From NCBI GenBank assembly GCA_030603685.1, contig JAUVXG010000011.1, positions 1-51,112 of the forward strand: 51,112 nt of DNA, in the 5' to 3' direction. The notes beneath the pieces were generated by a model that was not told the origin of the DNA, did no database searches, and saw only the letters and a program-made list of their open reading frames with translations. This document shows, in pieces, positions 22,236-42,262 of the stretch. A program made the translations under genes and the position numbers. Every line of letters starts with the position of its first letter. The first letter of the stretch is position 1. This DNA is from Pleomorphomonas sp. (GTDB lineage: Bacteria > Pseudomonadota > Alphaproteobacteria > Rhizobiales > Pleomorphomonadaceae).

Positions 22236-23234
22236 CTATTTGGCGCCCGGTGCGCGAATGCCGGCCATGATCTCGGAGATCACGGGACGCCGCCGTTCGA
22301 GGAATGGCAGGGGGCGGCAAACGTCAATGGCGGCGACGCCGACGCGAGCCGTGAGCAGCCCGTTGATCACCCCTTCGCCGAGGCGCGCCGACAGCTTGGC
22401 GGCAAGGCCGTGGCCGATCAGTTGTTGAGCGAGGCCGTCGCCGACGGCGATCGATCCGGTCACCGCGAGGTGGGTGAGAACGAGCCGGGTGAGCCGCGCC
22501 AGGCCCATGAAGCCGGGGCGCCCGCCATAGAGCGCGGCAAGGCGCCGGATCAGACCAAGCGTCGCCACCACAACGAACACCACGTCGATGGCGGCGCGCG
22601 GCGACACTGCCGTCACCACCGACACGCGGGCGGCGGCGTCCGACACCAGGCGACGAGCCGCCGCGTCGAGCGGAGCCAGCAGGTCCGCCTCGGCCAGCAC
22701 CAGCCGGTCGCGCCCGTCGATGACGTCGTCGACGCGTGCTTCGGTTGCCCTGCGGCCGGGCGCGAGGTCGATCCGGTCGGCATAGAGCACCATCAGCTCG
22801 CCCACCACCGCCTCGGCCTCCGGCCGGTCGTCACTCGCGGCGGCAAGGTCGGCGCGTCGTCGCATGCGGTCGATGCGCTTCAACCAGATCAGGCCGGCGA
22901 TCTCGCGCGCGGCGATGGCGACCACGGCAACGACGGCAAGCGCGATCAGGCCGATCGCCAGCCAGCCGAGCCAGTCCTCGCGGGCGAACAGCTCGCGGAC
23001 CAACTGGTCGAGCCAGAGCCCGATGGCCAGCGACAGGATGCCGACCACGGCGCCGAAGAACAGCCGCGACCAGGCGAAACGTCGACGGACGGGCGGCAGG
23101 GGGACGGGCAGATCCTCCGTCTCCGCAGCTTCCTCGACGATGACGCCGGTGGCGTCCGATGGAGACGCCTCGCCGGGACGAACATGGCTGACGTGGTCAG
23201 CCCCGAGATCGAAGGCGGTGGGACGGCGCGTCAT
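22236..23234 (-). CDS. YcjF/DUF697-family (UPF0283) membrane protein
   Basis: A 332-residue inner-membrane protein of unknown function. A polar N-terminus (about 65 residues) is followed by two transmembrane segments (LFFGAVVGILSLAIGLWL and WLAIGLIALAVVAVVAIAA), a basic RIDRMRRRADLAA stretch, and a C-terminal DUF697-like region with VSPRAAIDVVFVVVATLGLI and GVINGLLTARVGVAAIDVCRPLPF. Its ATG overlaps the ycjX stop (ATGA). The two are a conserved pair in proteobacteria, often linked to envelope stress. It is the last gene of sixA-ycjX-ycjF. Confidence 0.9.
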   Translation of the reverse strand: MTRRPTAFDLGADHVSHVRPGEASPSDATGVIVEEAAETEDLPVPLPPVRRRFAWSRLFFGAVVGILSLAIGLWLDQLVRELFAREDWLGWLAIGLIALAVVAVVAIAAREIAGLIWLKRIDRMRRRADLAAASDDRPEAEAVVGELMVLYADRIDLAPGRRATEARVDDVIDGRDRLVLAEADLLAPLDAAARRLVSDAAARVSVVTAVSPRAAIDVVFVVVATLGLIRRLAALYGGRPGFMGLARLTRLVLTHLAVTGSIAVGDGLAQQLIGHGLAAKLSARLGEGVINGLLTARVGVAAIDVCRPLPFLERRRPVISEIMAGIRAPGAK

Positions 23235-24694
23235 GCCAGGCGGTCTCCGATCAGGAAGTCGAGGGCGCGGTCGAGACGGATGTGCGGCAGCGACAGGCTG
23301 ACGCCCTCGGCCGTCACCTCCACCGGCGGCGGCCGGAAGCGCAGGAAGCGCAGCGCGTCGAACGCCGGATCGTCGGGCTCCGGCTCACGGAACAGTGCCT
23401 GCGGGTTCTCCGGAAGATCGCCGGGGAACAGCGCGATTTCTTCCTTGCCGTCATAGAGATGGTCGTCGAGCAGCTCGCCCTGCTGCGGCACGCCGAGAAT
23501 GCAGGGCAGGCTCTCGCCGTTGCGCCGCACCATCGCCTCGCGGGTCGCCCGCACGGCGGCGAGCGCCTTGACGTCCACCTCGGCGCCGGAGAACGAAGCG
23601 CGGGCGATCGCCCGGTCGGTGAGGCGACGCAGGATCAGCTCCAGCCGGTCGTGGCTGGCGTGGTGAAGGTGATCGGCCTTGGTGGCGGCGAACAGGATGC
23701 GGTCGATGCGGCGCGTCAGCACCTGCCCCAGCCAGGAGGAATGACCCGGCCGGAAGCAGGCGAGGATCTCGCCGAGCGCCACTTCGAGGTCGATCAGAGC
23801 CTCTCGCCCGCCATTCAGCGCCGCCAGCACGTCGACCAGCACCACCTGCCGGTCGAGCCGGGCGAAATGCGTGCGGAAGAACGGCCGGACGACCACGTCC
23901 TTGTAGGCTTCGAACCGGCTCTCCATCAGCGACCACAGGCTGTCACGCGGCGCCTCGCCCGTCTCCGGAAGGTCGAGCGGCGCGAAGGTCAGCGCCGGCG
24001 AGCCCGCCAGATCGCCCGGCATCAGGAAGCGGCCCGGCGGCACCATGGACAGCGACAGGCTGCCGCCGCGCGCCGCGCCGAGATAGGCCGCGAACAGCTC
24101 ATGCAGACGCCCTGCCGCCTCGTCGTCGGCCGGTCCCATGGGATCGATGCCCGACGTGTGGGTCAGCCAGTCGGCCGCAATGGCGGTGCGGCGCGGCTCG
24201 CGGGCCCGCTCCAGCGTCTCGGAGCAGAAGGCGCGGTAGGTCTTGGAGAGAAGAGGCAGGTCCAGCAGCCATTCGCCGGGGTAGTCGACGATGTCGAGAT
24301 CGAGCTTGCCGCGCCCGAGCGACCGGCCGAGGAAGGTGGCGCTCTCATAGGCGATGGTCAGGCGCAGTTCGGAGATCTGGCGCGTCGAGTCCGGCCAGAT
24401 GCGGGCGTCGGTCAGCTTGCGCACGTGGCCGCGGTAGTCGAAGGTCGGGACATCGGGATGGAGCTGCGGCCGGATATCGGCGCCGAGAAGGCGCCCCGCC
24501 CGCCACGGCTCGAACATCGGCAGCCGGCCACCGTGGATCAGGTTATGGATCAGCGCCGTGATGAAGACGGTCTTGCCGGCGCGGGACAGGCCGGTGACGC
24601 CGAGCCTCAGCGACGGCGAACCGAGGCTCCAGGCGAAATCGGCCATGTTGTCGAGCGCTATGCGCGCTTCGTCGGAAAGCGTGGTGAAGCTCAC
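23231..24694 (-). CDS. YcjX/DUF463-family P-loop GTPase-like protein
   Basis: The product has 487 residues from a GTG at 24694 (VSFTTLSDEARIALDNMADF). It carries the nucleotide-binding loop GLSRAGKT near residue 35, a DIVDYPGEWLLDLPLL segment (Walker B-like DYPGE), and the conserved SLSMVPPGRFLMPGDLAG and LVDVLAALNGGREA. The biochemical role is not established; the family is tied to phage-shock/sigma-32 regulons in gammaproteobacteria. The same frame is open far into sixA, but that part is sixA read out of frame. The start codon is inferred from the family beginning TTLSDEARIALD and lacks a clear ribosome binding site. Confidence 0.88.
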   Translation of the reverse strand: MSFTTLSDEARIALDNMADFAWSLGSPSLRLGVTGLSRAGKTVFITALIHNLIHGGRLPMFEPWRAGRLLGADIRPQLHPDVPTFDYRGHVRKLTDARIWPDSTRQISELRLTIAYESATFLGRSLGRGKLDLDIVDYPGEWLLDLPLLSKTYRAFCSETLERAREPRRTAIAADWLTHTSGIDPMGPADDEAAGRLHELFAAYLGAARGGSLSLSMVPPGRFLMPGDLAGSPALTFAPLDLPETGEAPRDSLWSLMESRFEAYKDVVVRPFFRTHFARLDRQVVLVDVLAALNGGREALIDLEVALGEILACFRPGHSSWLGQVLTRRIDRILFAATKADHLHHASHDRLELILRRLTDRAIARASFSGAEVDVKALAAVRATREAMVRRNGESLPCILGVPQQGELLDDHLYDGKEEIALFPGDLPENPQALFREPEPDDPAFDALRFLRFRPPPVEVTAEGVSLSLPHIRLDRALDFLIGDRLA

Positions 24695-24768
24695 GACTTC
24701 GTCGAACCTCGTCCGGCGCGGAAGGCGCCGCGCCTCTATGTAGGCACGGCCCGCGCGAGAACAATGGC

Positions 24769-25296
24769 TTAGTCCCCGTCGGGACCGCCAAGGTCGGCCG
24801 GCGTCACGAAGGAGATCAGCCGCCCGTCCCCCGGTCCGAGGTCGCGCCAAGCGCCGGAAAACTCGATCACGGCGAGCGAGGCGGTCGGAAACTTGGCGGA
24901 GAGTCTTGCCAGCAGGGCGCGGTCGCCCTCCCCGGGCAAGGTCGACGCCAACCGGTGGATCGATGGATTGTGCCCGACGACCAGAAGATTCTCCGATCTG
25001 TCGGCGTGGGTGGCGATCACCTTGAGCATGGCGCCGACAGAGGCCTCGTAGAGGTCGCGTACGAGATCGACGGCGACGCGCTCGGGCAGAAACGGCTTCA
25101 CCCCGTCGAGCGTCTCGCGCGTCCGCGCCGACGGCGAACAGAGCACCAGATCGGGCACGTATCCCGCCTCGGCCATATGACGGCCGACAGCCGGCGCGGC
25201 CTCCCTGCCCCGCGCGGTGAGTGGCCGGTCGAAGTCCTTCTGGCCGGAAACGGCCGGCGGCGACTTGGCATGTCGGAGAAGAAAAAGGCGTGGCAT
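24769..25296 (-). CDS. SixA-like histidine phosphatase
   Basis: A 175-residue protein of the histidine phosphatase superfamily. It has the catalytic RHAKS (R8, H9) at the N-terminus and the second histidine in LLVVGHNPSIH, with GRHMAEAGYVPDLVLCSPSA in between. SixA removes phosphate from histidine of phosphotransfer proteins; an orphan Hpt protein is 3.3 kb away, but a link is speculation. GGAGG lies 6 bases before the ATG at 25296, which fixes the start. It is the first gene of sixA-ycjX-ycjF and divergent from the glutamine synthetase gene. Confidence 0.88.
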   Translation of the reverse strand: MPRLFLLRHAKSPPAVSGQKDFDRPLTARGREAAPAVGRHMAEAGYVPDLVLCSPSARTRETLDGVKPFLPERVAVDLVRDLYEASVGAMLKVIATHADRSENLLVVGHNPSIHRLASTLPGEGDRALLARLSAKFPTASLAVIEFSGAWRDLGPGDGRLISFVTPADLGGPDGD

Positions 25297-25443
25297 TGGC
25301 GGCCTCCGGGACTCCCATCTCGCCGGACTTGGCGTAATGTCCAATCAGTCTAACCTGATTCCGGGCTGCCGACGCGGCCTCGACGATCCGCCGCCCCCTC
25401 GGGGCTCGCGAGTTCGGTCGGTCAGGTCGCCGAGGATCGCTTC

Positions 25444-28969: not shown

Positions 28970-29648
28970 CGCTGTCGCCTCGTTGTTCTCTCGGAGGGGC
29001 GGCCGTGCCTTTCGCATGGGCACCGACCGGCACTTGAAGTTGACGCGGTTGCTCCGAGGAGCGGTCGGAATTCTGAAGATATGGTTAACTCGCCGGATGC
29101 AATCCAAGCCTGTTGCCGCCGTGAAGCACTGCAAGGCTGCGCAAGGAGGCCGGGGACGCACCCGATACGGGCGATGACCGAGATCGCAACAACCGACAAG
29201 CCTGTCGGTAACCATATGTTTTAAGCCAATATTCAACTCGATGGCCTAGCGTCTTGACTGTGTCTGCACGGCATCTTCGTCACTTCGGACGCCGGCACGC
29301 GCACCAACGGCGAGGGATCGTCGGCCCATTGAACGTCCGCCCTCGGGTCCGGAAATAGCAACCAGAAGATGAATAACAATGTTCGACGCCTATTAGCGGC
29401 TTGTTAACAATACGGGCCGCCGGGGGAGCTTTCCTTGTTCGGAAGGGCCTGTTGTGCCATTACGTTTTATTAGGCATTCCTCGGCCGGCGTAGCCATTGC
29501 TGTCTCTTCAGGGGGCACGTGGCGGTCGGGAAGGCCCGAGTTCATGTCATTCGCCTAGGCCGGGCGGAGGCATGGTTCGACCGGGACGGCAACCGGGAGT
29601 ACGCTTCCGGGTACCGTCCGGCTTCAAGTATGCGGACATGAGGGTACC
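28970..29648. other. Non-coding region between hpt and the giant coiled-coil gene
   Basis: About 680 bases with no supported gene; the longest gap in the window. It holds an inverted repeat ACCGACA-AGCC-TGTCGGT at 29192-29209, GTTAAC palindromes at 29084-29089 and 29403-29408, and lower GC content from about 29210 to 29480. A promoter for the plus-strand giant gene is expected here. A small RNA cannot be excluded. Confidence 0.5.
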
Positions 29649-32600
29649 ATGGTAAAAAGCACCAAGGCATCGGATCCGGCGGAGGCCGCACTCTCCGCCG
29701 TCGAGGAGGCCCTGAAGATCGACTTCGGCGTCTCGGCCGATGAGCCGAAATCGCCCGACCAGGATACCTTCTCCGAAAGCTCTGACGCTGCTTCGCGCCA
29801 GCCGCTTGCCGACAACGCCGATACGCCGCGCACCTCGGCGCGCCCCGGTCGCGCCCCGGCCAACGACGACCGCCGGTCGGTCGCGACGCTGCTCTATCAG
29901 ATGCAGCGCCGGCCATCGGCTGCCCCCTTCTGGATTGCCCTCGCCGCTTCCGTCGTCTGGGTAGCCGGCGGCTTCTACGTCGCTCGCGCCGCCTTCGGCG
30001 ACTTTTCGGTTCTGGCCGACCCCGCCGCCCTGTTCGCCCGTCCCGACGGCTTTGCCCTCGTCGGCGGCATCGTCGCCCCGGTCGTGCTGTTTTTCGCCAT
30101 CGCCACGATGATCTGGCGCGCCCAGGACCTGAGGCTCGCCGCCCGCTCGCTCTCCGAAGTCGCGATCAAGCTCGCCGAGCCCGAGATGTCGGCCAAGGAG
30201 AACGTCGTCACCGTCGGTCAGGCCATCCGGCGCGAAGTCGCCGCCATGGGCGACGGCATCGAGCGTGCCCTCGCCCGCGCCAGCGAGCTCGAGGTGCTGG
30301 TCCACAACGAAGTCAGTTCGCTCGAGCGGTCCTACGCCGAGAACGAGATGCGCATCCGCAGCCTGGTCGAGGAACTGGTCAGCCAGCGCGAGAGCGTGAT
30401 CGCCAACGCCGAGAAGGCGCGCACCGCCATCTCCGGCGCCCATCAGAACCTCTCCGAGGAGCTGCGCACCGCCGGCGATCTTCTCACCAACCGCATCGAC
30501 GAGACCGGCCGCAACGTCACGCGCACCTTCGGCTCCAAGGCCGAGGAACTGGCGCTGGCCTTCGAGGCGGCCGGCAACTCGGTCACCGAGACGGTGGCCA
30601 AGCGCGGCGCCGACTTCCTGGCGACGCTGGGCGCCGAACGCGAAAGCCTGATCAGCGGTCTCGCCGAAACCGGCACCGCCATCAACGAGGCGATCTCCAC
30701 TCGCAGCGAAACGCTGACGCGCACCATCACCGAGGAAGGCGGCCGCCTCACCGCCGCCATCGGCAAGGAAACCGAGCAGCTCGGCAGCGAGCTCGCCAAG
30801 CGGTCCGACGAACTCGTCTCGACCATCGCCACCCGCGCCGCCGACCTGTCGGCCGCCCTCAGCGACGGCACCGGCGAACTGGCCTTCACGCTGGCCTCGC
30901 GCACCGAGGAACTGGTTTCCACGCTGACCGCCCGCTCGGACGAGCTGTCGTCGACCCTCACCGATCGCACCGCCGACATCGCCTTCACCCTGTCGGCCCG
31001 CACCGAGGAAATCGTCTCCTCCATCGCCGCCCGGTCCGACGAACTGTCGTCGACGCTGTCGGTCCGTACCTTCGAGCTCGGCAAGACGCTCGGCGAGAAG
31101 GCCGAGGAGATCGGCGCCACGCTGGAAAGCCGCACGGCCGAGTTCTCCACCGCGCTCGCCGAGAAGAGCGACGCCCTGGAGAGCACGCTCGCCCTGCGTT
31201 CGGCCCAGTTGGCCAGCACCATCGAGGCCCGCACCGGCGAACTCAGCGCCGAGCTGACCGACAAGACCCAACTGATCGACCAGACGATCTCCGGCCGCAC
31301 CAGCGAGCTCGCCGAGACGCTGTCGACGCGCGCGGAGCTGTTCGGCGCCACGCTCGCCGAGCAGTCGGCCAACTTCGACCGCACCATCGGCCACCGCGTC
31401 AACGAGCTGGTTTCGACCGTCGCCACATCGACATCGGTCATGGAAACGCAGCTGCTCACCCGCACCGACAATCTCGACAAGGTGCTGACCGAGCGGTCGC
31501 AGGAAATTGCCTCCGCTCTGGAGAGCCGGACCGGCTCCCTCGATACGCTGCTGCGCGACCGCAGCGACGCCATCATCTTCTCGATCGACACCACCGTGGC
31601 CGCCCTTGAGGAGAACCTCACGCTGCGCACCAAGGAGATCGACGAGACGCTGGCCCGCTCCGGCCAGACCTTCGCCGAGGACATCTCCCAGCGTGCCTTC
31701 GCCGTCAGCGAGCAGGTCGCCCGCACCACGGACGAAGCCTCCAAGGCGATGGCCGAGAAGATCGAGACCATCAACGAGACGCTGCGCTCCACGTCCGAAG
31801 GCGTGCTGCTCGACCTGTCGATCCGCGGCAGCGAGATCACCGACCGCCTCGACCAGACCGGCAACATGATCACCTCGACGATCACCGAGCGCGGCACCGA
31901 TCTCGTCAACAAGCTGGCCGTCACCGGTGAAGCGGTGCACACGGCGATCAACGTCAACGGCGTCGACCTCGCCGACCGCATCGCCGCCAGCGGCCATGAG
32001 GTCGCCCGCATGATGGACGACCGCACCACGTCGATCCGCGGCATCATCGACGGCGCCACGCTGTCGGTGGAGACGCTGCTCGCCGACAGCGGCAGCCTGT
32101 TCTCCGAACGCCTGTCGACCATCGGCGCCGAGATCGCCCGCGCCGTCAACGCCCGTGGCGAACGCGTCGCCGAGACCATCCTCGCCGCCGGCAGCCAGAT
32201 CGCCAACCTGCTCGACGATCGGTCGGACAGCATGTCGGTCAGCTTCGCCGAACGCATCCGCGTGCTCGACGAGATCATCAACGGTCGTGCCGCCGAGCTG
32301 GTGGAAAGCCTCGTCAGCCGCACTTCGATGCTCGACGGCTCCCTCGAAGAACAGATCGGCCGCATCGAAGCGGCGCTCGCCGAGCGCACGCTCACCATCC
32401 AGAACGCTCTCGCCGAGGGTACCAATGCCCTTGAGGCGACCCTCAGCGGCCGCTCCGGCGCCATCACCGGGCTCATCGACGAGCGCGTCGAGCGCCTCGG
32501 CACCGAGTTCGACAAGCGCTCCGGCGCTCTGGTCGAGACGCTGGATGGCCGTACCCAGGCGGTGCTCGCCTCGCTGGAAGGCCGCGCCGGCAGCTTCGGC

Positions 32601-34649
32601 GAAGCGCTGGAAGGTCAGCTCGCCGCCTTCGACGGCAGCGTCGGCAAGCGCCTCGAGGATGCCACCCGTACCTTCGCCGACAAGGCGGATTCGCTGACCG
32701 GCACCCTCGACAACCGCATCGAGCTGATCGACCACGCCCTCGACGGTCGTGCCCGCCAGATCACCGAAACGCTGATGGCCCGCACCCGCGATCTGGCCCA
32801 GGCCTTCTCGGCTGGCCAGTCGGAAATGGTCGACGCCATCGAAGGCCGCCTCGACGCCGTCGGTCGGTCGCTGCAGCGCAAGACCGAGGAGTTCACCGAG
32901 ACGCTGGCCGACAAGGTGGCCGAGATCAACGTGTCGCTCGGCTCCAAGGTGTTCGAGGTCGCCGAGACGCTCGACAGCCGCGCCAACTCGCTGGAGGTGT
33001 CGCTCACCCAGCGTCTCGCCTCCATCGTCGACATGCTCGGCAGCCAGACCGAGACGGCTCGCGAGGAGCTGGCCCGCGCCCTGATCAACGCCGCGTCCGT
33101 GCTCCAGAAGGAGAGCGCCCGCGTTCGCGAGGATCTCACCGGATCCGTGGAAGCGGCCACCGACAAGCTGCGCGTCGAGGCCGACCGGGCCAAGGAGATC
33201 GTCACCGAGGCCATGACCGCCATCGCCCACGAGATGGAAAGCGGTTCGGTCCGGGCGCGCGACGTGGTCGCCAGCGTGCTGGAAGGCATGTCCGAGCGCC
33301 TCGCCGGCGAGAGCGAGCAGGTTCGTGCCGTGGTCGTCTCCGCCATCGACGGGGCCGCGACGCGCCTTGCCACCGAGGGCGAGAACACCTCGCTCGCCGT
33401 CAGCCAGTCGCTGGCCGGCGCCGAGGATCGGCTCGCCAGCCTGCGCGACGAAACGCATGGCACGCTCAACGAACTGATCAGCACGCTGTCCGACGTGCTC
33501 TCCACCGAGAGCCAGAAGGCCCGCGAGAACGTCTACGAGGCGATCACCGCCGTCGAAGGCCGCCTCGTCGGCGAGAGCGAGCGCGTCCGCGACACCATCA
33601 TCGGTTCGGTCGACGACGTCACCGGCCGCATGGCAGCGGAAAGCGAGAAGGCGCGCGCCGGCCTGATCGGCGCCATCGACGAGGTCACCGACCGCCTGTC
33701 GGAAGAGACCGCTCGCGCCCGCTCCAACCTCATCGGTTCGGCGGAAGCGGTCACCGGCCGCATCGCCGGCGAGACCGAGCGGTCGAGCGAGATCCTGGCG
33801 GCGGCCATCGCCTCCGCCACCGAGCGCCTCGCCGACGCGACGCGCGATCTCGAGGCGGTGCTCAATGCCCGCACCGAGGCCGCCGCCGACGCCATGGACA
33901 GCCGCGCCGAGAAGGTGGTCGACGTCGTCACCCGCCGCATGGCCGAGCTGGCCGAACTGGTCGACGGCCGTGGCGGCGATCTGGCCAACGCCTTCCTCTC
34001 CGGCACCCGCGCCCTCGACGAGGCCGTCGGCAGCCGTGGCGAGGAAGTGGCCGGCATGGTCCGCAACGCCGCAAGCGACGTCCTGGCGGCGCTGGCCAAG
34101 GGTGGCGAGGGCGTCAGCCGCGCCATCACCCAGCGCGGCAACGACGCTGCCGAGGCGCTGAAGCAGGCGACCTTGTCGCTGATGGCCACCTTCGACGAAC
34201 AGGGCCGCGACGTCCTGCAGTCGCTCGACGACACCACGACGCGCGTCAAGACAGACGTCGTCGCCGTGCTGGGGCAGGTGGACGACGCCAACCGCGGCCT
34301 CCGCTCGCTCGTCGACCAGGCGGCCGGCAACCTTGCCCGCATCGAGCGCGGCCTCGAGCAGCAGACCGGCGACCTTCGCCTGTCGCTCGAGCGCGTCGTC
34401 GCCGACACCACCGCCTCCAGCACCACCGTCGCCGAGACGACCGAGGTGCTGCGCGAGGTGTCGCGCACCGTGCTGGCCGACATCGGCACCATCGCCTCCT
34501 CGCTCGCCGAGCAGACCGGCGATCTGCAATCGTCGGCCCGCGCCCTGTCGTCCGTCGGCGGCACGCTCCAGGACGTCATCGGCGATCGCCTCTCGGCGCT
34601 CGACGGCGTGGTCTCCACGCTGCAGGAGCGCAGCGTGACGATGTCCTAA
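29649..34649 (+). CDS. Giant membrane-anchored coiled-coil protein, GPR/RgsE-like (N-terminal part)
   Basis: A 1666-residue protein resembling growth pole ring protein GPR of Agrobacterium and RgsE of Sinorhizobium, which organise unipolar growth in Hyphomicrobiales. Residues 1-90 are polar. Two transmembrane segments follow (about 94-113 and 135-156). From about 253 to 1539 there are 11-residue repeats of the type [RK]-[STAG]-x-[ED]-[LIVF]-x-x-x-[LIV]-x-x in one register, about 117 units. The frame ends at a TAA (34647-34649) that is in frame with the next ORF, which supplies the C-terminal domain normally present in the same polypeptide. GAGGG precedes the ATG. The family assignment is from remembered architecture and length (GPR is about 2100 residues), not from a search. 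Confidence 0.82.
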   Translation: MVKSTKASDPAEAALSAVEEALKIDFGVSADEPKSPDQDTFSESSDAASRQPLADNADTPRTSARPGRAPANDDRRSVATLLYQMQRRPSAAPFWIALAASVVWVAGGFYVARAAFGDFSVLADPAALFARPDGFALVGGIVAPVVLFFAIATMIWRAQDLRLAARSLSEVAIKLAEPEMSAKENVVTVGQAIRREVAAMGDGIERALARASELEVLVHNEVSSLERSYAENEMRIRSLVEELVSQRESVIANAEKARTAISGAHQNLSEELRTAGDLLTNRIDETGRNVTRTFGSKAEELALAFEAAGNSVTETVAKRGADFLATLGAERESLISGLAETGTAINEAISTRSETLTRTITEEGGRLTAAIGKETEQLGSELAKRSDELVSTIATRAADLSAALSDGTGELAFTLASRTEELVSTLTARSDELSSTLTDRTADIAFTLSARTEEIVSSIAARSDELSSTLSVRTFELGKTLGEKAEEIGATLESRTAEFSTALAEKSDALESTLALRSAQLASTIEARTGELSAELTDKTQLIDQTISGRTSELAETLSTRAELFGATLAEQSANFDRTIGHRVNELVSTVATSTSVMETQLLTRTDNLDKVLTERSQEIASALESRTGSLDTLLRDRSDAIIFSIDTTVAALEENLTLRTKEIDETLARSGQTFAEDISQRAFAVSEQVARTTDEASKAMAEKIETINETLRSTSEGVLLDLSIRGSEITDRLDQTGNMITSTITERGTDLVNKLAVTGEAVHTAINVNGVDLADRIAASGHEVARMMDDRTTSIRGIIDGATLSVETLLADSGSLFSERLSTIGAEIARAVNARGERVAETILAAGSQIANLLDDRSDSMSVSFAERIRVLDEIINGRAAELVESLVSRTSMLDGSLEEQIGRIEAALAERTLTIQNALAEGTNALEATLSGRSGAITGLIDERVERLGTEFDKRSGALVETLDGRTQAVLASLEGRAGSFGEALEGQLAAFDGSVGKRLEDATRTFADKADSLTGTLDNRIELIDHALDGRARQITETLMARTRDLAQAFSAGQSEMVDAIEGRLDAVGRSLQRKTEEFTETLADKVAEINVSLGSKVFEVAETLDSRANSLEVSLTQRLASIVDMLGSQTETAREELARALINAASVLQKESARVREDLTGSVEAATDKLRVEADRAKEIVTEAMTAIAHEMESGSVRARDVVASVLEGMSERLAGESEQVRAVVVSAIDGAATRLATEGENTSLAVSQSLAGAEDRLASLRDETHGTLNELISTLSDVLSTESQKARENVYEAITAVEGRLVGESERVRDTIIGSVDDVTGRMAAESEKARAGLIGAIDEVTDRLSEETARARSNLIGSAEAVTGRIAGETERSSEILAAAIASATERLADATRDLEAVLNARTEAAADAMDSRAEKVVDVVTRRMAELAELVDGRGGDLANAFLSGTRALDEAVGSRGEEVAGMVRNAASDVLAALAKGGEGVSRAITQRGNDAAEALKQATLSLMATFDEQGRDVLQSLDDTTTRVKTDVVAVLGQVDDANRGLRSLVDQAAGNLARIERGLEQQTGDLRLSLERVVADTTASSTTVAETTEVLREVSRTVLADIGTIASSLAEQTGDLQSSARALSSVGGTLQDVIGDRLSALDGVVSTLQERSVTMS
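30405..34265 (+). repeat. 33-base-period coding array (about 117 hendecad repeats)
   Basis: Codons 253-1539 of the giant gene. Each 33-base unit encodes 11 residues with hydrophobic residues at positions 5 and 9 and a small residue at position 2. This 3-4-4 spacing is the hendecad pattern of right-handed coiled coils. Units checked at residues 385, 913 and 1287 are exact multiples of 11 apart, so I saw no insertion or deletion that breaks register. From about residue 1155 the units alternate in 22-residue pairs (ESxxARxxL-type followed by xxAATxRL-type). DNA identity between units is only partial, so these are old repeats. Confidence 0.85.
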
Positions 34650-35738
34650 ATGCTGCAGTCCATCGCCGGCCAGATCCAGGACACGCTGTCCAACGCCGAG
34701 CGCCGCGCTCGCGACGTGGGCTACCAGCTGGCCCGCAACGCCGAGACGGCCATGAACGGCGTCACCCAGCAGCTCGAGCAGCTGTCGGTCAGTGCCGAGG
34801 AAGAGGGCCGCAAGACCCAGGTGACCATCGAGCGGGTGCGCAGCGAGCTGATCTCCGAGATCAACGCCTCCATCGGTTCGGCGGTCGACCGCTTCGCCGG
34901 CGCCACCGAGGAAATGCGCAAGGCCACCCGCGCCGTCGGCCGGGAGCTGGAGCAGATCCGCGAGGATCTGAACCGCGGCGTCCTCGACCTGCCGGAGGAG
35001 ACCAGCCAGCACACCGCCGCCATGCGCCGCGTGGTCAGCGAGCAGATCCGCGCCCTGAACGAACTCTCCGAGATCGTTTCGCGCCAGTTGCCCGGCGAAG
35101 CCGTCTCCGACATGCCGGTCCGGGCCCAGGCTTCGGCGGCCCAGGCGCACCGCAGCCTGCCGGTCCAGAAGCCGTCGCAGCCGTCCGAGCCGCGCGCCTT
35201 CAGCCGCCAGCCGGCCAACCAGCCGCCCCGCCCGGCCGTCGCCGAACGCCGGCAGGAACCGGCGGCGCGCCAGCCGGCCTCCGAGGAGCGCAGCGAGCGG
35301 TCGAGCGGCTGGATCTCCGACCTGCTGCGCCGCGTCAACGACGAGGATACCCCGTCGCCGCGCCTGCCGTCGTCCGACCGCAACAAGGGCGGCAACCCGC
35401 TAGATGGCCTGGGTTCGCTGACCTCGGACATCGCCCGGTCGATCGACCCCGAGTCCTACACCGAACTCTGGGATCGCTACCGGCGCGGCGAAGGCAACGT
35501 GTTCACGCGTCGCGTTTACACGCTGCAGGGCCAGCAGACCTTCGACGAGGTTCGCCGTCGCTATGGCCGCGAGGCCGACTTCCGCGAGGCTGTCGACCGC
35601 TACATCGATCACTTCAGCGCCCTCTACGAGGAAGCCGTCCAGAAGGACCCGAATGGCCGCCTCGCCGAGAACTACCTGAACTCCGATACCGGCAAGGTCT
35701 ACACGCTCCTGGCGCATGCCAGCGGCAAGCTCGGCTGA
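34650..35738 (+). CDS. GPR/RgsE-like protein, C-terminal part (separated by an in-frame stop)
   Basis: A 362-residue ORF that begins with the ATG directly after the TAA of the preceding ORF and in the same frame. Residues 1-115 continue the helical region ([20 protein letters not shown]). Residues 155-255 are Pro/Gln/Arg-rich linker. The conserved C-terminal domain runs from about 270 to 355 with [38 protein letters not shown] and EFRxxVDxYIDxF-like helices, as in the ends of large Hyphomicrobiales polar growth proteins. No ribosome binding site is within 15 bases of the ATG (AGGAG is 21 bases off). So it may be made by reinitiation or readthrough, or the stop may be an assembly error or mutation. 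Confidence 0.8.
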
Positions 35739-35913: not shown

Positions 35914-36228
35914 ATGCTGAAGGCTTCGATTACCACTGCCATCCTCGCCGGCGCGGTCACCACGGCCCTCGCCACCCTTGCGAGCGCGAGCCCCCTGACC
36001 AAGGCCGAAGCGGATGCCGCGACCGCCGCCCACAAGGAGAAGTGCTACGGCGTGGCGCTCAAGGGCCAGAACGACTGCGCCGCCGGCCCGGGAACGACCT
36101 GCCAGGGGACGTCGATGAAGGACTTCCAGGGCAACGCCTGGAAATTCGTCCAGGCCGGCACCTGCGCCTCGCTGGAACTGCCCGGCGGCCGCCATGGCTC
36201 GCTCATGCCGCTCGACCGCGACATCTGA
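35914..36228 (+). CDS. bufA: Bufferin precursor, DUF2282 family (BufA1-like)
   Basis: A 104-residue secreted precursor peptide. The Sec signal peptide covers about residues 1-25 ([20 protein letters not shown]). The mature part has four cysteines, Cys44, Cys55, Cys63 and Cys84, in [19 protein letters not shown] and [16 protein letters not shown]. This is the DUF2282 pattern (EKCYGxxxxGxNDCAxxxxxCxGTS). Bufferins are ribosomal peptides whose cysteines are modified by an MNIO enzyme and which bind copper in the periplasm. The enzyme and partner follow directly. GGAG is 7 bases before the ATG at 35914; longer frames upstream are not supported. Confidence 0.9.
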
Positions 36229-36256
36229 CCCTGAAGACCGGAAAGCGGAGGTGGCC

Positions 36257-37180
36257 ATGGCCAAGGTCGATATGACTTCCAGCGATTCCGCGAGAGCGGA
36301 ACCAACACCCCGCTTTCCGGCATTGATCGTGACCGGACAGGCCGGCACCAGTTTCAAGCCGGAGCACCTTCAGGCGATCATGGCCGAGAGCGGCTCGCAA
36401 GGCTTCTTCGAGGTGCACGCCGAGAACTACATGGGCAACGGTGGTCCACCGCATCGGGCGCTCGAAAGGGTGAGGCGGGATCATCCCGTCTCGCTGCACG
36501 GCGTCTGCATGTCGCTCGGCGGACCGCAACCGCTCGACAAGGAACACCTCGCCCGCTTCAAGCACCTCGTCGACCGCTACGAACCGGCGCTCGTCTCCGA
36601 ACATCTCGCCTGGTCAACCCATCTCGACACCTATCTGAACGATCTTCTGCCGTTGCCCTATACGAACGCGACCCTCTCTCACGTTTGTGACCACATCGAC
36701 GAGATGCAGGCGGCGATCGGCCGTCCGATCCTCCTGGAAAACCCTTCGACCTACGTGCTCTTCGCGGCCTCATCCATGAGCGAGACCGAGTTCATCCGGG
36801 AGATCTCGCGGCGAACCGGCTGCGGGCTGTTGCTCGACATCAACAACGTCTTCGTCTCCGCCACCAACCACGGCTTCTCGGCGCTCGACTACCTCCGCGA
36901 CTTCCCGCTGGCGCAAGTTGGCGAGATCCATCTGGCCGGCCACGCCGAGCAGGAAGACGACGAAGGCGACCTGTTGCTGATCGACAGCCATGACGGACCG
37001 GTCGCCGATGCCGTCTGGCGCCTCTACGAGCTCGTCATCGCCCGCTGCGGCCCGGTCCCCACCCTGATCGAATGGGACAGCCAGATTCCCGATTGGCCGG
37101 TGCTGCGCGCCGAGGCGGAAGCGGCACAAGCCATCCTGGACCGCTATGCCCAAGGAGAGCCGTCCCATGCGCTCGGCTGA
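36257..37180 (+). CDS. bufB: MNIO (DUF692) multinuclear iron oxidase, bufferin-modifying
   Basis: A 307-residue TIM-barrel oxidative enzyme. Likely metal-binding and active-site segments are [63 protein letters not shown] and EWDSQIPDW, which is the full DUF692 set. MNIO enzymes convert cysteines of precursor peptides to thio-heterocycle-type products using iron and oxygen. GGAGG is 5 bases before the ATG at 36257. It lies 28 bases after bufA and overlaps bufC by 14 bases. Confidence 0.93.
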
Positions 37181-37979
37181 CATCCTGCCGCTCTATCCAA
37201 ACGGGATCGACTACGCCGGGTCGTTCTCGGCCGCCCTGCTTGCTCCCGACAGCCCGGCCCCGGCTCTAGTGACGGGGCCGCGCGGCAAGCGAGCCGAGGC
37301 GCGCTACAATGTCTACCGCAACAACGTCACCGTCAGCCTGATCGACGCCCTCGCCTCGATCTTCCCGGCGGTCGCACGCATCACGGGGGCGGACTTCTTC
37401 CGCGCCATGGCCCGCTTCCATGTGCGGGAGACCCCGCCAACCTCGCCCCTTCTGTTCGAATACGGGCGCGCCTTTCCCGATTTCATCGACCGCTACGAGC
37501 ATGCGGCGGACATGCCCTGGCTTTCGGACGTGGCGCGGATCGAGCGCTTGTGGCTCGACAGCTATCACGCTGCCGACGCCCCCGCCCTCACGGCCGAGAC
37601 GCTGTCGAGCGTGCCGCCCGAAGGGCTCGGGGCGCTCGTCTTTGTCCCGCATCCGGCAACGCGGTTGATCTCCTCGGTCCATCCGGCCATCACGGTCTTT
37701 GCCATGAACAGGAGCGCCGCCCCGGTAGGCCGCGTGCAAGACCGGCCCGAGGACGGACTGATCACGCGGGTCGACGACGAGGTGACCGTCCGTCTCCTGC
37801 CTCCCGGCAATCTCGTCTTCCTCAAGGCGCTGATTGCCGGACACCCCCTGGCGACGGCGGCCGGTGCAGCCTTCGCGGTCGAGCCAGCCTTCGATCTCTC
37901 CGACGCCATCGGCGGAATGATCGCGGCCGGCGCTTTCTCCCACGCCGAGATGGAGACCTCCAATGTCGAGCCTGCCTGA
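37167..37979 (+). CDS. bufC: DUF2063 partner protein of the MNIO enzyme (BufC-like)
   Basis: A 270-residue protein. The N-terminal DUF2063 domain (about residues 8-105) contains [40 protein letters not shown] and [20 protein letters not shown]. The C-terminal half holds [20 protein letters not shown] and [20 protein letters not shown]. In known pairs the partner recruits the precursor to the MNIO enzyme. AAGGAGA is 8 bases before the ATG at 37167, making it a better start than the ATG at 37146. It overlaps both neighbours, so bufB-bufC-bufD are translationally coupled. Confidence 0.9.
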
Positions 37980-38484
37980 TTCAATGCCTCGCCATGGTGC
38001 GCGCATCTCCCTCGCCAGGGTCGTGACGTCGGCTGACGGCCTCGTTGGCAGGATGGCGCAGCCGGACATCGTGCAGGCCGTCCTCCGCGTTGCCCTTGCC
38101 GTTCCCTTCTGGCAGTCCGGCATCCTGAAATGGGATGGCTTCCTGCGACTGAACGACACGGCGGTCTATCTGTTCAGCCAGGAGTTCATGCTGCATCTGC
38201 CCGGAGGGCCCTACCCTTTCCCGGCACCGGAAGTGGTGGCGTTCCTGTCCGGCTGCGGCGAGGTCGTGCTTCCGGTGCTGCTCGTTCTGGGGCTAGGCGC
38301 TCGCTTCGCCGCCCTTGGCCTGCTTGTGATGACGGCCATCATCCAGATCACGGTCCCCGATGGCTGGCCGATCCACCTGACATGGGCGGCGATGGCACTT
38401 GCCCTGATGCGGCACGGGCCGGGGCGCCTCTCCCTCGACCATCTGATCGCGAGGATCTCTTGCCGCGGCGCTCGTCCATCGTGA
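37963..38484 (+). CDS. bufD: DoxX-family membrane protein (BufD-like)
   Basis: A 173-residue inner-membrane protein with four hydrophobic segments: IVQAVLRVALAVPFWQSGI, VVAFLSGCGEVVLPVLLVLG, ALGLLVMTAIIQITV and LTWAAMALALMRHG. This fits the DoxX family often found as last structural gene in DUF2282-DUF692-DUF2063 operons. A role in quinone or redox coupling in the membrane is guessed for such proteins. It overlaps bufC by 17 bases and has GGAG 7 bases before the ATG. Confidence 0.85.
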   Translation: MSSLPDSMPRHGARISLARVVTSADGLVGRMAQPDIVQAVLRVALAVPFWQSGILKWDGFLRLNDTAVYLFSQEFMLHLPGGPYPFPAPEVVAFLSGCGEVVLPVLLVLGLGARFAALGLLVMTAIIQITVPDGWPIHLTWAAMALALMRHGPGRLSLDHLIARISCRGARPS

Positions 38485-38666
38485 CCGGGGCCGACACAGC
38501 TCTGGCGCTTTCGCCCTCCGGTTCGCCAGGGATGGAGCGCCGGTCGGGTTCTCTTGCCTTTTGCCAGTCGATGGGTTCATCTGGCGCCGGTGTCACCTTG
38601 TCGCCTCACAGGCGCCTGCCAAGCGGCGACAACGACGATGCCGGTCCGCGCGGGGGGACATGGCGG

Positions 38667-39233
38667 ATGAACCATTCGGCCCGGGAAGAGGAGTGGGCGG
38701 CCTGGATGTGCGCGGCGATGGCCGGCGACACGATGGCCTACCATCGCTTCCTGAAGGCCGTGACGCCCTATCTTCGATCGATCGCCAGCCGACGGTGCGC
38801 CCAATACGGAGCGCCGCCGAGCGAGGTGGAGGACGTGGTGCAGGAAGTCCTGCTGGCCGTTCACCTGAAACGCGGAACCTGGGATGTCTCGCGACCCGTC
38901 GGTCCCTGGCTGTCGTCCATCGTGCGCAACAAGCTGATCGACAGCCTGCGCCGACGCGGCCGCCAAGTCAGCGTTCCCATCGATGACGTGATGGAAACCC
39001 TCGAGGCCGCGCCACAGGCCGAAGCCGCCGAGCACGTCGACGTCGACCGCATGGTGGAAAGCCTGCGGGACCCGCAACGCGAGATCGTGCGATCCATCTC
39101 GCTCGGTGGCGCAGGCATTCGCGAAACGGCCGAGCGATTGCAGATGACGGAAGGCGCCGTACGGGTGGCGCTGCACAGGGCATTGAAAGGGCTGGCCGCC
39201 CTCTATCGGAGCGACGGACGTGCAAACGGATGA
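38667..39233 (+). CDS. sigF: ECF sigma factor, SigF-like
   Basis: A 188-residue extracytoplasmic-function sigma factor. Region 2 lies at about residues 20-95 (EVEDVVQEVLLAVHLKRGTW, GPWLSSIVRNKLIDSLRRRG). Region 4 lies at 125-180 (RDPQREIVRSISLGGAGIRE, TAERLQMTEGAVRVALHRAL). It should direct RNA polymerase to the promoter before bufA. The ATG at 38667 lies 183 bases after bufD, a gap without a gene; an own promoter there was not recognised. Its end overlaps the anti-sigma gene by 14 bases, which ensures balanced synthesis. Confidence 0.9.
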   Translation: MNHSAREEEWAAWMCAAMAGDTMAYHRFLKAVTPYLRSIASRRCAQYGAPPSEVEDVVQEVLLAVHLKRGTWDVSRPVGPWLSSIVRNKLIDSLRRRGRQVSVPIDDVMETLEAAPQAEAAEHVDVDRMVESLRDPQREIVRSISLGGAGIRETAERLQMTEGAVRVALHRALKGLAALYRSDGRANG

Positions 39234-39855
39234 TCTGATCGAACTGCTGGCAAAGGATGCCAAGGTGCGCGTCCGCTTCGGACACGTCTTCCTGGTCGCG
39301 CTGGCGATCGGTCTCACGATCTCCGCCGGCCTGCTACTGTCGACCTACGGCATCCGGGACAACATGTCCGACGCGATCGAGACACCGCGCGTCATGTTCA
39401 AGCTCGGCCTCACCCTGCTGCTGGCGATCGCCTCCACCCGCCTCGCCTTCCTCATCGGCAAGCCCGGGCTATCCCTCCGCTCGGCGGCCTTCTCACTCTT
39501 CTGGCCTCTGCTCGTCCTGCTCGCCGGTGTCGCGACCGAGCTGACCGTTCTGCCGCAAGGCGCATGGGAGACGAGCCTGAAAGGGCAACACTGGAGCTTC
39601 TGCCTGGTGTTCGTGCCCACCCTTGCGATCGCACCTCTCGCCGCCCTGCTCTACTCGGTCCGCCAGGGCGCGCCGGAAAGCCCTGGACTGGCTGGCGCGG
39701 CGGCGGGACTCGCGGCAGGCGGCATCGCTGCCGCCATCTATGCCTGGCACTGCCCCGACGACAGCCCGCTGTTTGTCGCGACCTGGTACACCATCGCCAT
39801 AGCCATCGTGACCGCGATTGGCTTCCTGCTCGGCCGCCGCATCCTTCGCTGGTGA
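39220..39855 (+). CDS. nrsF: NrsF/DUF1109 membrane anti-sigma factor
   Basis: A 211-residue protein from a GTG start, with six hydrophobic segments, which should hold the sigma factor at the inner membrane. Two cysteines stand at 128 (HWSFCLVFVPTLA) and 178 (WHCPDDSPLFVATWY). The pair is 50 residues apart, as in Caulobacter NrsF, where two conserved cysteines are needed for response to heavy metals. This suggests that metal stress releases the sigma factor. The ORF ends 18 bases before the convergent lipoprotein gene. Confidence 0.9.
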   Translation: MQTDDLIELLAKDAKVRVRFGHVFLVALAIGLTISAGLLLSTYGIRDNMSDAIETPRVMFKLGLTLLLAIASTRLAFLIGKPGLSLRSAAFSLFWPLLVLLAGVATELTVLPQGAWETSLKGQHWSFCLVFVPTLAIAPLAALLYSVRQGAPESPGLAGAAAGLAAGGIAAAIYAWHCPDDSPLFVATWYTIAIAIVTAIGFLLGRRILRW

Positions 39856-40601: not shown

Positions 40602-42254
40602 TTAGCGGCGCGGTGCGTATTGCGGCACGCCCTGTCCGCCGAAGATGAACTGCTGCGGATTCTTTTCAACGCCTTGCAGCACGCGGTCAAGCCGTGCCAA
40701 CGCCTGCCGCCCCTGCTCGGCCAGCGCGACGAAACTGTCGAGCCCGCGACCGGAGAACTTCGACACGTTGGCCGTGATCGGTCCGACCTGGGCATTCAGC
40801 TTGTCGGCCACCTCGCGGATCGACTTCGCCGCCGCCGTCGCTTCGGCAACGAGCCCCTGCCCGTCACCGGTGACGTAACCGTCCACCTTCTGGAGAATGC
40901 CGTCGGCCCGCGCTGCGATGCCGTTCAGCTGCTCGGCGAGCGTCCGCGTGTCGCGCACGATGCGGTCGACGTCGGGCGTCCGCGCATCGATGGTATCGCC
41001 AAGGTTGGCAAGACTGGCCGAGGCGCGGTTGACGTCGGCCATGATGGCGTCGAGCTGCGGCTTGTAGCCCTTGAGCATGGCGGCGAAATCGCTGACGTCG
41101 GTCACCGTCGACCGGACCTTCGCCGGATCGACCGCCTCGACGACGCCGCGCGCCGCGCCGAGCGTCTGGCGCGCATCATCGACCACCATGCCGAGCGAAC
41201 CGGACGCCGCCGCGATGTTCTGCGAGGCGGTATCCACCGCCGACACCACCGACCGCACCTTCTCGGTGTCGACCGCCGCCAGGAGTTCGTCGGCCCGGGC
41301 GGCGGTGGCGCGCAACTCGTCGGAGGTGGCGGTGATGCTCGCCACAAGACGGTCGACTTCCTGCGGATCGACCGCCGTCAGGATCGCCTTCGCCTGGGCG
41401 ACGGTCTCGTCGAGCGTCTTTGCGGCGTCGGCGATGTTGTTGACGACGCCATTGACCGCTTCGGGGTCGATGCCATCGGCGATCACCTTCGCACGCTCCA
41501 GCACGGCGGTCAGCCGCTCCGAGGAGGCTGTGAGCCGCTCGGTGATCTCCGTCACCCGCTGCGGATCGACGGCGTTGAGGATCCGCGTCACCTGCGCCGC
41601 CGCGCCCTTGAGGTCGCGCGAGATGTCGCCGATGGAGTCGGCCGCCGACGAGATCGAGCCCATTGCCTTGGAAATGTTGTCGGAGTTGTCGGCGAGCGCC
41701 GCCGAGAACTTCTCCACGTTGTTGACGGTGCGATTGAAGGCGGGGCCGTTCTCCGTCACGAAATCGTCGATCGCCGCCATGGCGCTGTCGGCGCGCGTCA
41801 GCACGTTGCGCGCGCTCTCGAGAATGTCCTGGAAGGGAGAGATTTCGCCCAGCATGGTCGGCATGCCGTCGGGCGCCACATCGAACACACCCGGCGCGTT
41901 GCGCGAGCCGCCCTCCAGCTGAAGCGTCGCGGCGCCGGTCAGCCCCTGATAGGACAGCATGGCGCGGGTATCGGTCTTGAGCGGCACGTCGCGGTTCACG
42001 CGGATGATGGCGATGACGGTGCGCGGATCCTTCTCGTCGAGCCTCAGCTCGCGCACCTCGCCGATCTTGATGCCGTTGAACAGCACCCCCGAACCGGTGG
42101 AAAGGCCGGTGACGGCGCCCGAGAACACCACGCGCACCTCGGCCTGCCGCTGGCTTTCTCCGGCGTTGCCGAGCCAGCCGAGGAACGCGAGGCCAAGCGT
42201 CAGCATGACCAGGACGAAGGCGCCGATCACCGCGTAGTTGGCCCGAGATTCCAT
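40602..42254 (-). CDS. mlaD: MlaD-like MCE-domain phospholipid transport protein, long form
   Basis: A 550-residue periplasmic substrate-binding subunit of an Mla-type lipid transporter. It has one transmembrane anchor (residues 7-29) and an MCE domain at about 38-116 (EVRVVFSGAVTGLSTGSGV, FNGIKIGEVREL). A very long helical C-terminal region follows, with five [IV]DPxxV-type motifs beginning at residues 225, 258, 291, 324 and 371; the first four are exactly 33 residues apart. E. coli MlaD has only about 183 residues, so this resembles the long-helix MCE proteins that make a tube. AGGA is 6 bases before the ATG at 42254; the end is VPQYAPRR. Confidence 0.92.
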   Translation of the reverse strand: MESRANYAVIGAFVLVMLTLGLAFLGWLGNAGESQRQAEVRVVFSGAVTGLSTGSGVLFNGIKIGEVRELRLDEKDPRTVIAIIRVNRDVPLKTDTRAMLSYQGLTGAATLQLEGGSRNAPGVFDVAPDGMPTMLGEISPFQDILESARNVLTRADSAMAAIDDFVTENGPAFNRTVNNVEKFSAALADNSDNISKAMGSISSAADSIGDISRDLKGAAAQVTRILNAVDPQRVTEITERLTASSERLTAVLERAKVIADGIDPEAVNGVVNNIADAAKTLDETVAQAKAILTAVDPQEVDRLVASITATSDELRATAARADELLAAVDTEKVRSVVSAVDTASQNIAAASGSLGMVVDDARQTLGAARGVVEAVDPAKVRSTVTDVSDFAAMLKGYKPQLDAIMADVNRASASLANLGDTIDARTPDVDRIVRDTRTLAEQLNGIAARADGILQKVDGYVTGDGQGLVAEATAAAKSIREVADKLNAQVGPITANVSKFSGRGLDSFVALAEQGRQALARLDRVLQGVEKNPQQFIFGGQGVPQYAPRR

Positions 42255-42262
42255 GGCGTTTC

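Follow-up and report, generated by a model that had tools for sequence, protein, structure and literature searches.

The locus considered here, a gene at 29649–35738 on the forward strand of a 51,112-nucleotide stretch of Pleomorphomonas sp. DNA (assembly GCA_030603685.1, contig JAUVXG010000011.1; this whole stretch is hereafter the window), raises the question of what a giant protein made largely of 11-residue helical repeats is built to do, given that profile searches label it an apolipoprotein. The protein is spread over two open reading frames (ORFs) in the same frame: an upstream ORF of 1666 amino acids (aa) at 29649–34649 (+), which holds the N-terminus, two transmembrane (TM)-like segments, a neck, the repeat array, and the start of a post-array rod, and a downstream ORF of 362 aa at 34650–35738 (+), which holds the rod end, a proline-rich linker, and a C-terminal domain. 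In complete genes of same-genus relatives, the C-terminal match closes a single open frame of 2058–2267 aa, which indicates that the two ORFs are one gene, split in the present assembly by a single in-frame TAA at codon 1667 (34647–34649, +), where relatives have intact copies. From its sequence, the gene would be a GPR/RgsE-type polar-growth protein, a membrane-anchored helical rod, and we consider it probable that this rod is a hendecad coiled-coil strut rather than a lipid-wrapping apolipoprotein.

The repeat register was evaluated using an 11-phase Viterbi model which was allowed to slip or stop. This returned a single segment, residues 247–1533 (30387–34247, +), spanning 1287 aa or 117.0 units with zero slips and a score of 562, compared to at most 0.08 in 20 whole-protein shuffles. 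In controls, 100 of 100 artificial insertions of 1–10 residues were recovered, and 0 slips were called in 50 column-shuffled arrays. A preliminary description of this DNA had proposed about 117 consecutive hendecads in one unbroken register at residues 253–1539, which is the same array cut six residues later, and this observation is confirmed, along with the small, hydrophobic, and hydrophobic residues it had placed at positions 2, 5, and 9. In that frame, position 2 is mostly T, G, S, or A, position 5 is large and hydrophobic in 84%, and position 9 is I, L, V, F, or M in 117 of 117 units, while the units it had singled out at residues 385, 913, and 1287 do lie on multiples of 11, being 48 and 34 units apart by simple arithmetic. 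The periodicity analysis it had called for gave the same picture: Fourier power at period 11/3 was 31.3, with a shuffle maximum of 1.77 (100 shuffles, coarse period grid), and hydrophobic autocorrelation reached 0.54 at lag 11 and 0.61 at lag 22, a two-unit (22-residue) preference being present as well. Across twelve successive 100-aa windows, the phase at 11/3 stayed between 60 and 92 degrees, about 16 degrees around its mean, for a coherence of 0.988.

Regular arrays of this kind could in principle be a drifting low-complexity expansion, in which periodicity is a by-product of tandem duplication free of structural selection. The DNA does include a 99-bp tandem repeat (33 codons, three hendecads; 30805–31054, +; 2.5 copies, 74% matches) and a 33-bp one (one hendecad; 32889–32973, +; 2.6 copies, 71% matches), and units 14–26 are more alike than others; the 99-bp repeat reads as a trace of growth in whole units. 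Yet any two units have on average no more than about 2 of their 11 residues in common, while the core position is kept in all 117, slips in the wider family (see below) are almost all heptad multiples, and other orders hold equally coherent 25- and 29-residue beats. Taken together, this makes unselected drift very improbable.

Outside of the array, a Kyte-Doolittle scan identified a TM-like hydrophobic pair at residues 91–109 and 132–159 (29919–30125, +), followed by a neck which is highly conserved in the alignment (residues 160–246; 30126–30386, +). Downstream of the array lies a proline-free post-array rod (residues 1534–1781; 34248–34991, +) with a period near 3.6, which spans the stop codon; within residues 1534–1666 the period peak is 3.561 and lag 25 is the strongest among the lags tested. 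Residues 179–1781 form the longest stretch without proline. The protein ends in a conserved helical domain (35403–35735, +), for which AlphaFold2 gave 10-residue block means of 84–95 from fragment residue 111 to the end, and for which a Foldseek comparison to the PDB gave no match below E 0.001 among the 57 obtained at E up to 10. The C-terminal ORF was matched in 40 of 40 genomes (its own and 39 relatives) with no stop inside any match, Pleomorphomonas sp. NRK KF1 (L145) being among the same-genus relatives, at 99% over the query. Of 297 genomes sampled from the order Hyphomicrobiales, 292 carry the domain itself, usually as one match per genome.

The conserved C-terminus, the two N-terminal TM-like segments, and a long helical region matching the Pfam apolipoprotein profile (PF01442) are the features of GPR/RgsE, to whose architecture the preliminary description had already pointed, in this respect correctly. 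Published GPR/RgsE proteins are of similar size (about 2000–2100 aa), have the same succession of parts, with a helical region of about 1,588–1,700 aa, and occur order-wide (PMC8262873, PMC7327166). RgsE, with homologues reported in all Rhizobiales families, is described as membrane-anchored, cytoplasmic, and located at the growing pole, with TolQ, RgsA, and RgsS as partners (Krol 2020, PMC7327166). Agrobacterium GPR is reported to form a 200-nm ring with six foci and to include five apolipoprotein-like regions, and C-terminal deletions of 221 or 332 aa abolish its complementation (PMC8262873). Unlike the description given here, these papers present the rod as apolipoprotein-like domains along with 21-residue coiled-coil pieces (PMC8262873, PMC7327166); the words hendecad, 11-residue, and periodicity are absent from the available text of both, as are 11-mer and 22-mer from that of PMC8262873.

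The published hypothesis is that of a lipid-binding apolipoprotein-like helix, i.e., an 11/3 helix lying on the inner membrane or wrapping lipid and thereby organizing polar lipid; in its favor, deletion of two apolipoprotein-like regions was reported to cause shape defects (Zupan 2021, PMC8262873). In our data, PF01442 matched the first ORF in ten stretches at E 3e-70 and 236.1 bits, far above the cut-off of 90, and the second ORF weakly (24.6 bits). Apolipoproteins A1, A4, and E have 11- and 22-residue helical periodicity, and PF01442 scores were compared between native and shuffled arrays. A 440-aa native stretch scored 115.5 bits, two decoys shuffled within the columns of the whole array 91.9 and 88.9, and a reversed stretch 53.8, while a full shuffle gave nothing. 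For a first 275-aa segment (A), the native sequence reached 90.1 bits, with 79.9 and 71.7 for column shuffles and 74.8 for shuffled unit order, whereas for a second one (B), also of 275 aa, all three shuffles (63.9, 74.8, and 66.3 bits) beat the native 59.1. In six relatives with other beats, PF01442 was not detected at E 0.01 in three and scored 32.0 and 16.1 in two others and 54.7 in a relative with a 29/8 beat, all below the cut-off. Since column and unit shuffling leave the score largely in place, and reversal leaves part of it, the match appears to report mostly periodicity and composition. This takes away most of the support expected from it, and remains compatible with common descent or lipid contact. 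The array also differs from apolipoproteins in being proline-free and acidic (net charge −86), and in its narrow seam: large hydrophobic residues occupy 2 of 11 positions, 33 degrees apart on the 11/3 wheel, and the flanking position is A, G, S, or T in 75%, a face which seems narrow for a lipid-binding helix. We thus view lipid binding as unlikely, and the apolipoprotein label as most likely due to an 11-residue helix geometry that both have in common, and not to lipid carriage. To that extent, the weight which the preliminary description gave to this geometry was supported: the 11-residue geometry would account for the Pfam match to a larger degree than apolipoprotein-specific sequence, as shuffled arrays keep most of the score.

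A coiled-coil strut accommodates the same periodicity. The array displays sustained 11/3 hydrophobic periodicity on a predicted helix, as expected of a hendecad coiled coil. For a 551-aa fragment running from before the first TM segment through about 34 hendecads, AlphaFold2 predicted the TM segments followed by helices of 274 and 209 residues. Hendecad coiled coils are described as almost free of supercoil, with one core residue per repeat facing the axis, which is small in dimers (PMC9858780). In the Pleomorphomonas protein the most central seam residue is always large, a poor fit to a tight dimer.

Under the mechanism we propose, the two N-terminal TM helices, predicted here by hydropathy and reported for RgsE, would anchor the protein in the inner membrane, and the conserved neck would lead to a cytoplasmic rod, some 1600 residues long and free of proline. 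In its main part, 11 residues would make exactly three turns, leaving the hydrophobic seam almost straight, and two or more chains may pack side by side along this seam into a coiled coil that is almost straight, with a very slight right-handed twist. The length of near 190 nm given in the preliminary description holds as arithmetic (1287 × 0.15 nm = 193 nm). The short rod with a 25-residue beat and the proline-rich linker would then lead to the conserved helical C-terminal domain, a likely connector to other subunits or partners. The rod would probably act as a long strut or spacer which keeps growth-pole machinery at set distances or links it. GFP is N-terminal in the published fusions, and the foci may thus mark that end alone, with rods possibly running between foci.

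A known parallel for such a strut is Scy, together with FilP, in the polar cytoskeleton of Streptomyces. Scy and FilP are not known to have a TM anchor. Scy is likewise a very long hendecad rod in a polar-growth scaffold, described as exceeding 1000 residues and consisting almost entirely of hendecads, although it belongs to a different phylum and has a DivIVA-like N-terminal motif (PMC9858780); this comparison is made by description. By contrast, the register here is unbroken over 1287 residues, and over up to 1770 in relatives, and the window protein had no Pfam match to DivIVA at E 0.1, its N-terminal part holding two TM-like segments. ZorA, an anti-phage protein, sits in the membrane and extends a long helical tail into the cytoplasm. 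In the rod beyond the main array, its tail profile (NF033914) weakly matched residues 1445–1744 of the L145 protein (L145:3909-10037; 28.6 bits, profile positions 305–611 of 619 only) and residues 1430–1653 of the window protein (17.9 bits), both far below the cut-off of 190.

Comparison to close relatives suggests how the array changes. We fetched 36 of the 39 relatives for this analysis, leaving out G015, G028, and G034. Among the 12 full-length same-genus relatives, the array is exactly 1287 aa in nine and 1265 aa in one, and in the two most distant ones it is 1389 aa, and 95 + 1380 aa with one +4 slip. The window protein and its ten closest relatives are 90–99% identical over the array, where the sole alignment gap is 22 residues long, in addition to many small gaps in the C-terminal linker. 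Between homologues, 181 of 246 gaps were multiples of 11 in 55 pairs hand-picked within families and compared with a repeat-unaware aligner. Aligners favor 11-residue gaps in 11-residue repeats, which counts against this figure, and the weight is thus carried by the 18 pairs at ≥85% identity, for which 19 of 21 gaps were multiples of 11.

Conserved array length would also be expected from a molecular ruler, whereby the number of hendecads sets the ring diameter or the spacing of foci at the growth pole, as the preliminary description had suggested. For 117 units, the computed 193 nm nearly equals the ring diameter of 200 nm reported for Agrobacterium GPR (PMC8262873), and the nine identical lengths point the same way. 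However, the three other same-genus relatives deviate, equal length may reflect nothing but relatedness given the 90–99% identity of the ten closest ones, and in the order at large the total array length varies between 176 and 2136 aa, with interrupted arrays in the family nearest to Brucella. Any ruler would thus give different sizes in different species, and we regard a ruler as an improbable function for the array.

Across the Hyphomicrobiales, we compiled the window protein, 133 proteins of sampled genomes, and 77 from named loci (199 distinct, of which 197 were scored). This sample was hand-picked and leans toward good matches and full-length genes, a bias which tempers the reading below, and its shares are not rates: 78 genes were selected by hand from the better-scoring listed C-terminal matches, mostly long open frames, a further set of 50 hits contributed 20 fetched loci, and the named loci are the best 80 of 571, from which L186, L201, and L205 were dropped as they had no frame. 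Two proteins (L065 and L066) gave no array call, L141 lies outside the order counts, and segments shorter than 22 aa were ignored. Within these limits, no slip was found in 61 of 197 proteins, and the unbroken stretch reached at least 1000 aa in 82 and at least 1287 aa in 39, with a maximum of 1770 aa. Slip-free proteins from named loci include most of those from Bosea, Roseibium, Methylobrevis (1642 aa), and Phreatobacter. Pseudovibrio proteins have two or three slips around stretches of 1338–1614 aa, and arrays are more broken in Aureimonas (longest stretch 573–701 aa) and Microvirga (412–456 aa). The Brucella, Falsochrobactrum, and Phyllobacterium proteins examined in detail slip every 25–160 residues. 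In the family nearest to Brucella (f23, taken as the Brucella family because the best match of L178 is f23 member L100, at 78% over 148 aa), slips occur in 27 of 27 fetched members and the longest unbroken stretches span 154–993 aa; this family presumably also holds Agrobacterium.

When they do occur, slips are not random. For 517 adjacent slips expressed modulo 11, 338 were +4, 133 were +8, and 26 were +1, so that 497 equal one, two, or three heptads replacing hendecads, against 30% if all ten shifts were equally frequent; slips inherited in common enter this total more than once, which reduces its force. The preliminary description had stated that homologues with frequent register-breaking insertions would speak against its claim. 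Such insertions were found, but as almost all slips are whole heptads, the hydrophobic seam is kept. The array thus appears to change by whole hendecads, with heptad exchanges in many lineages, a pattern suggesting that selection keeps the seam in phase. In single-segment proteins of the order, lag 25 is the strongest in the 139 aa following the array.

A wider survey indicated that the hendecad beat is not shared by the whole family. The C-terminal profile matched 74 of 193 genomes sampled class-wide, 71 of these from other orders, and in a phylum-level sample of 150 genomes all 35 matches fell inside the class; distant RgsE homologues have been named in the orders Emcibacterales and Rhodospirillales (PMC7327166). 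From 59 of the 71 matching genomes we obtained 60 proteins (G520 gave two), the first 20 being picked partly by length. In their first 350 aa, two TM-like segments were predicted in 45, one in nine, and three in five; the only protein with none, L258, has a frame that runs off its contig. Periods were scanned in 300-aa windows with a power threshold of ≥4, compared to at most 1.71 in 200 shuffles of one window. The 189 other-order windows above threshold, from 58 of the 60 proteins, peaked at 3.57 (85 windows), 3.58 (33), and 3.56 (11), with a second pile at 3.62–3.63 (30), while 746 of 1044 windows from the Hyphomicrobiales peaked at 3.66–3.67, with smaller groups at 3.60 and 3.64–3.65. In the best block of each protein, i.e., that of highest power, the strongest lag was 25 or 50 in 50 of 60, 29 or 58 in three, 11 in two, and another value in five, and the period was nearest to 25/7 in 48, 29/8 in six, and 18/5 in six; the median offset from the closest of the five rationals tried was 0.0018. 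Carriers of 25- or 29-residue beats among L245–L304 include L250, L258, L260, L262, L263, and L265, while for L254 and L272 lag 47 came out best. The 29-residue, 8-turn repeat of a few of these relatives resembles, by description, the 29-residue coiled coil of SF-assemblin.

These alternative beats are also sustained. Phase coherence was computed for ten proteins whose periods were already known when they were picked. Over 800–1600 aa, it was 0.79–0.99 at 25/7 (eight proteins) and 0.93–0.98 at 29/8 (two), whereas ten random phases exceed 0.77 once per thousand. The strong positions of L250 are spaced by 7, 7, and 11 residues, so that the 25-residue unit reads as two heptads plus a hendecad. 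The claim in the preliminary description that exact 11-residue geometry is the structural principle of the whole family does not hold, as only 61 of the 197 scored order proteins are slip-free, all fetched f23 members slip, and proteins outside of the order mostly follow 25/7 and in a few cases 29/8. Most simply read, the 25-residue beat would be of long standing, and Hyphomicrobiales would have gained a pure hendecad block by insertion or expansion. It is conceivable, and we suggest it tentatively, that one alphaproteobacterial rod family re-gears its helix through the heptad-to-hendecad ratio, from 25/7 in most other-order relatives through 29/8 in a few to 11/3 in Hyphomicrobiales, each beat being kept in phase over 800–1770 residues. 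The natural helix period is 3.63, with 25/7 below, 29/8 at, and 11/3 above it. As the three beats straddle this value, the supercoil would switch from left-handed to straight to slightly right-handed, which might tune the mechanics of the rod. The change in period may, with comparable caution, coincide with the order known for polar growth.

The copy in the window is itself split. The TAA is directly followed by an ATG codon (34647–34652), was unseen in the C-terminal matches of the 39 relatives, and together with two amino-acid changes falls within about six codons when compared to the nearest relative. This clustering, and the start codon it precedes, are what might be expected of a decaying or genuinely split gene, yielding two proteins or none, which would be compatible with a strut in the family as a whole. 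However, no other stop was found in 2029 codons, and changes relative to the nearest relative are mostly synonymous on both sides, with 158 synonymous and 25 non-synonymous ones in the 1666 codons before the stop, and 14 and 3 in the 148 codons after it. A split or dying gene is doubtful, and an assembly error or very recent mutation is as likely an explanation. A TAA was also observed inside the C-terminal match of one other-order relative (G436:C61:29626-29991).

Several points weigh against a coiled-coil strut, in addition to the alignment, descent, and sampling biases given above. The straight rod remains a prediction at moderate model confidence: the 551-aa model has a mean predicted local distance difference test (pLDDT) of 66.9 and a predicted template modeling (pTM) score of 0.23, with a break near fragment residues 337–341. 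Multi-chain packing along the seam is a prediction from single-chain data, the always-large central residue does not suit a tight dimer, and the array is rich in T, S, and G, which coiled coils usually are not. Among PDB sequences, apolipoprotein A-IV was the best match (E 4e-11), and the native sequences of segment A and the 440-mer score 10–27 bits above five of five shuffles, which leaves room for some apolipoprotein-like order. Finally, the GPR/RgsE assignment is made by architecture, and the window's own copy is interrupted. Even so, a membrane-anchored hendecad strut is in our view the probable reading of this polar-growth scaffold.

Other features of the window are of more local interest. 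An antisense open frame of 1867 aa with a GTG start (29547–35150, −) covers nearly the whole rod gene, with a second open frame of 690 aa at 30443–32515; such antisense frames probably arise incidentally from codon use that is both biased and periodic. Downstream, a cluster at 36194–39852 (+) includes an MbnB/TglH/ChrH-type enzyme of ribosomally synthesized and post-translationally modified peptides (RiPP), DUF2063, DoxX, a sigma-70 factor, and an NrsF-type negative regulator of sigma F, and resembles what may be a sigma-factor-controlled metal or oxidant response unit. It is followed by an MlaD/Mce-type protein at 40605–42317 (−), with a weak DUF948-like helical stretch further on. Upstream, the 5′ part of a YcjX-like (DUF463) ORF (23234–25318, −) overlaps a tRNA-Met prediction (25123–25216, −), so that its true start probably lies further in.

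Long hendecad rods in polar scaffolds have a precedent in Scy and are thus of a known kind. What appears to be new within the literature searched is the unbroken length, the heptad-quantized slips, and above all the lineage-specific exact beats within one family: in the open-access literature searched, no paper was found linking hendecads with GPR/RgsE or describing a 25-residue beat in this family, and the available text of PMC9369452 does not speak of 25, 29, or 18 residues in those words. Heptad-based predictors should miss most of such a rod, which may explain why just 21-residue pieces were reported. The dimensions of the protein also deserve a second look. For 1,700 helical residues, a length of 600 nm has been given (Zupan 2021, PMC8262873), which is near that of a fully extended chain, whereas an alpha helix of this size would measure about 255 nm at 0.15 nm per residue. 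This comes near the 200 nm of the ring, and the published case for a protein that has to be folded up loses force accordingly. GPR/RgsE organizes polar growth in a large bacterial group, and the hypothesis that it does so through lipid partly rests on a Pfam match that appears mostly to read periodicity. The register instead provides testable rules, by which insertions of 11 residues should be tolerated and off-register ones should not, and the occurrence of 25/7, 29/8, and 11/3 in one family offers a natural series for relating sequence period to superhelix handedness.

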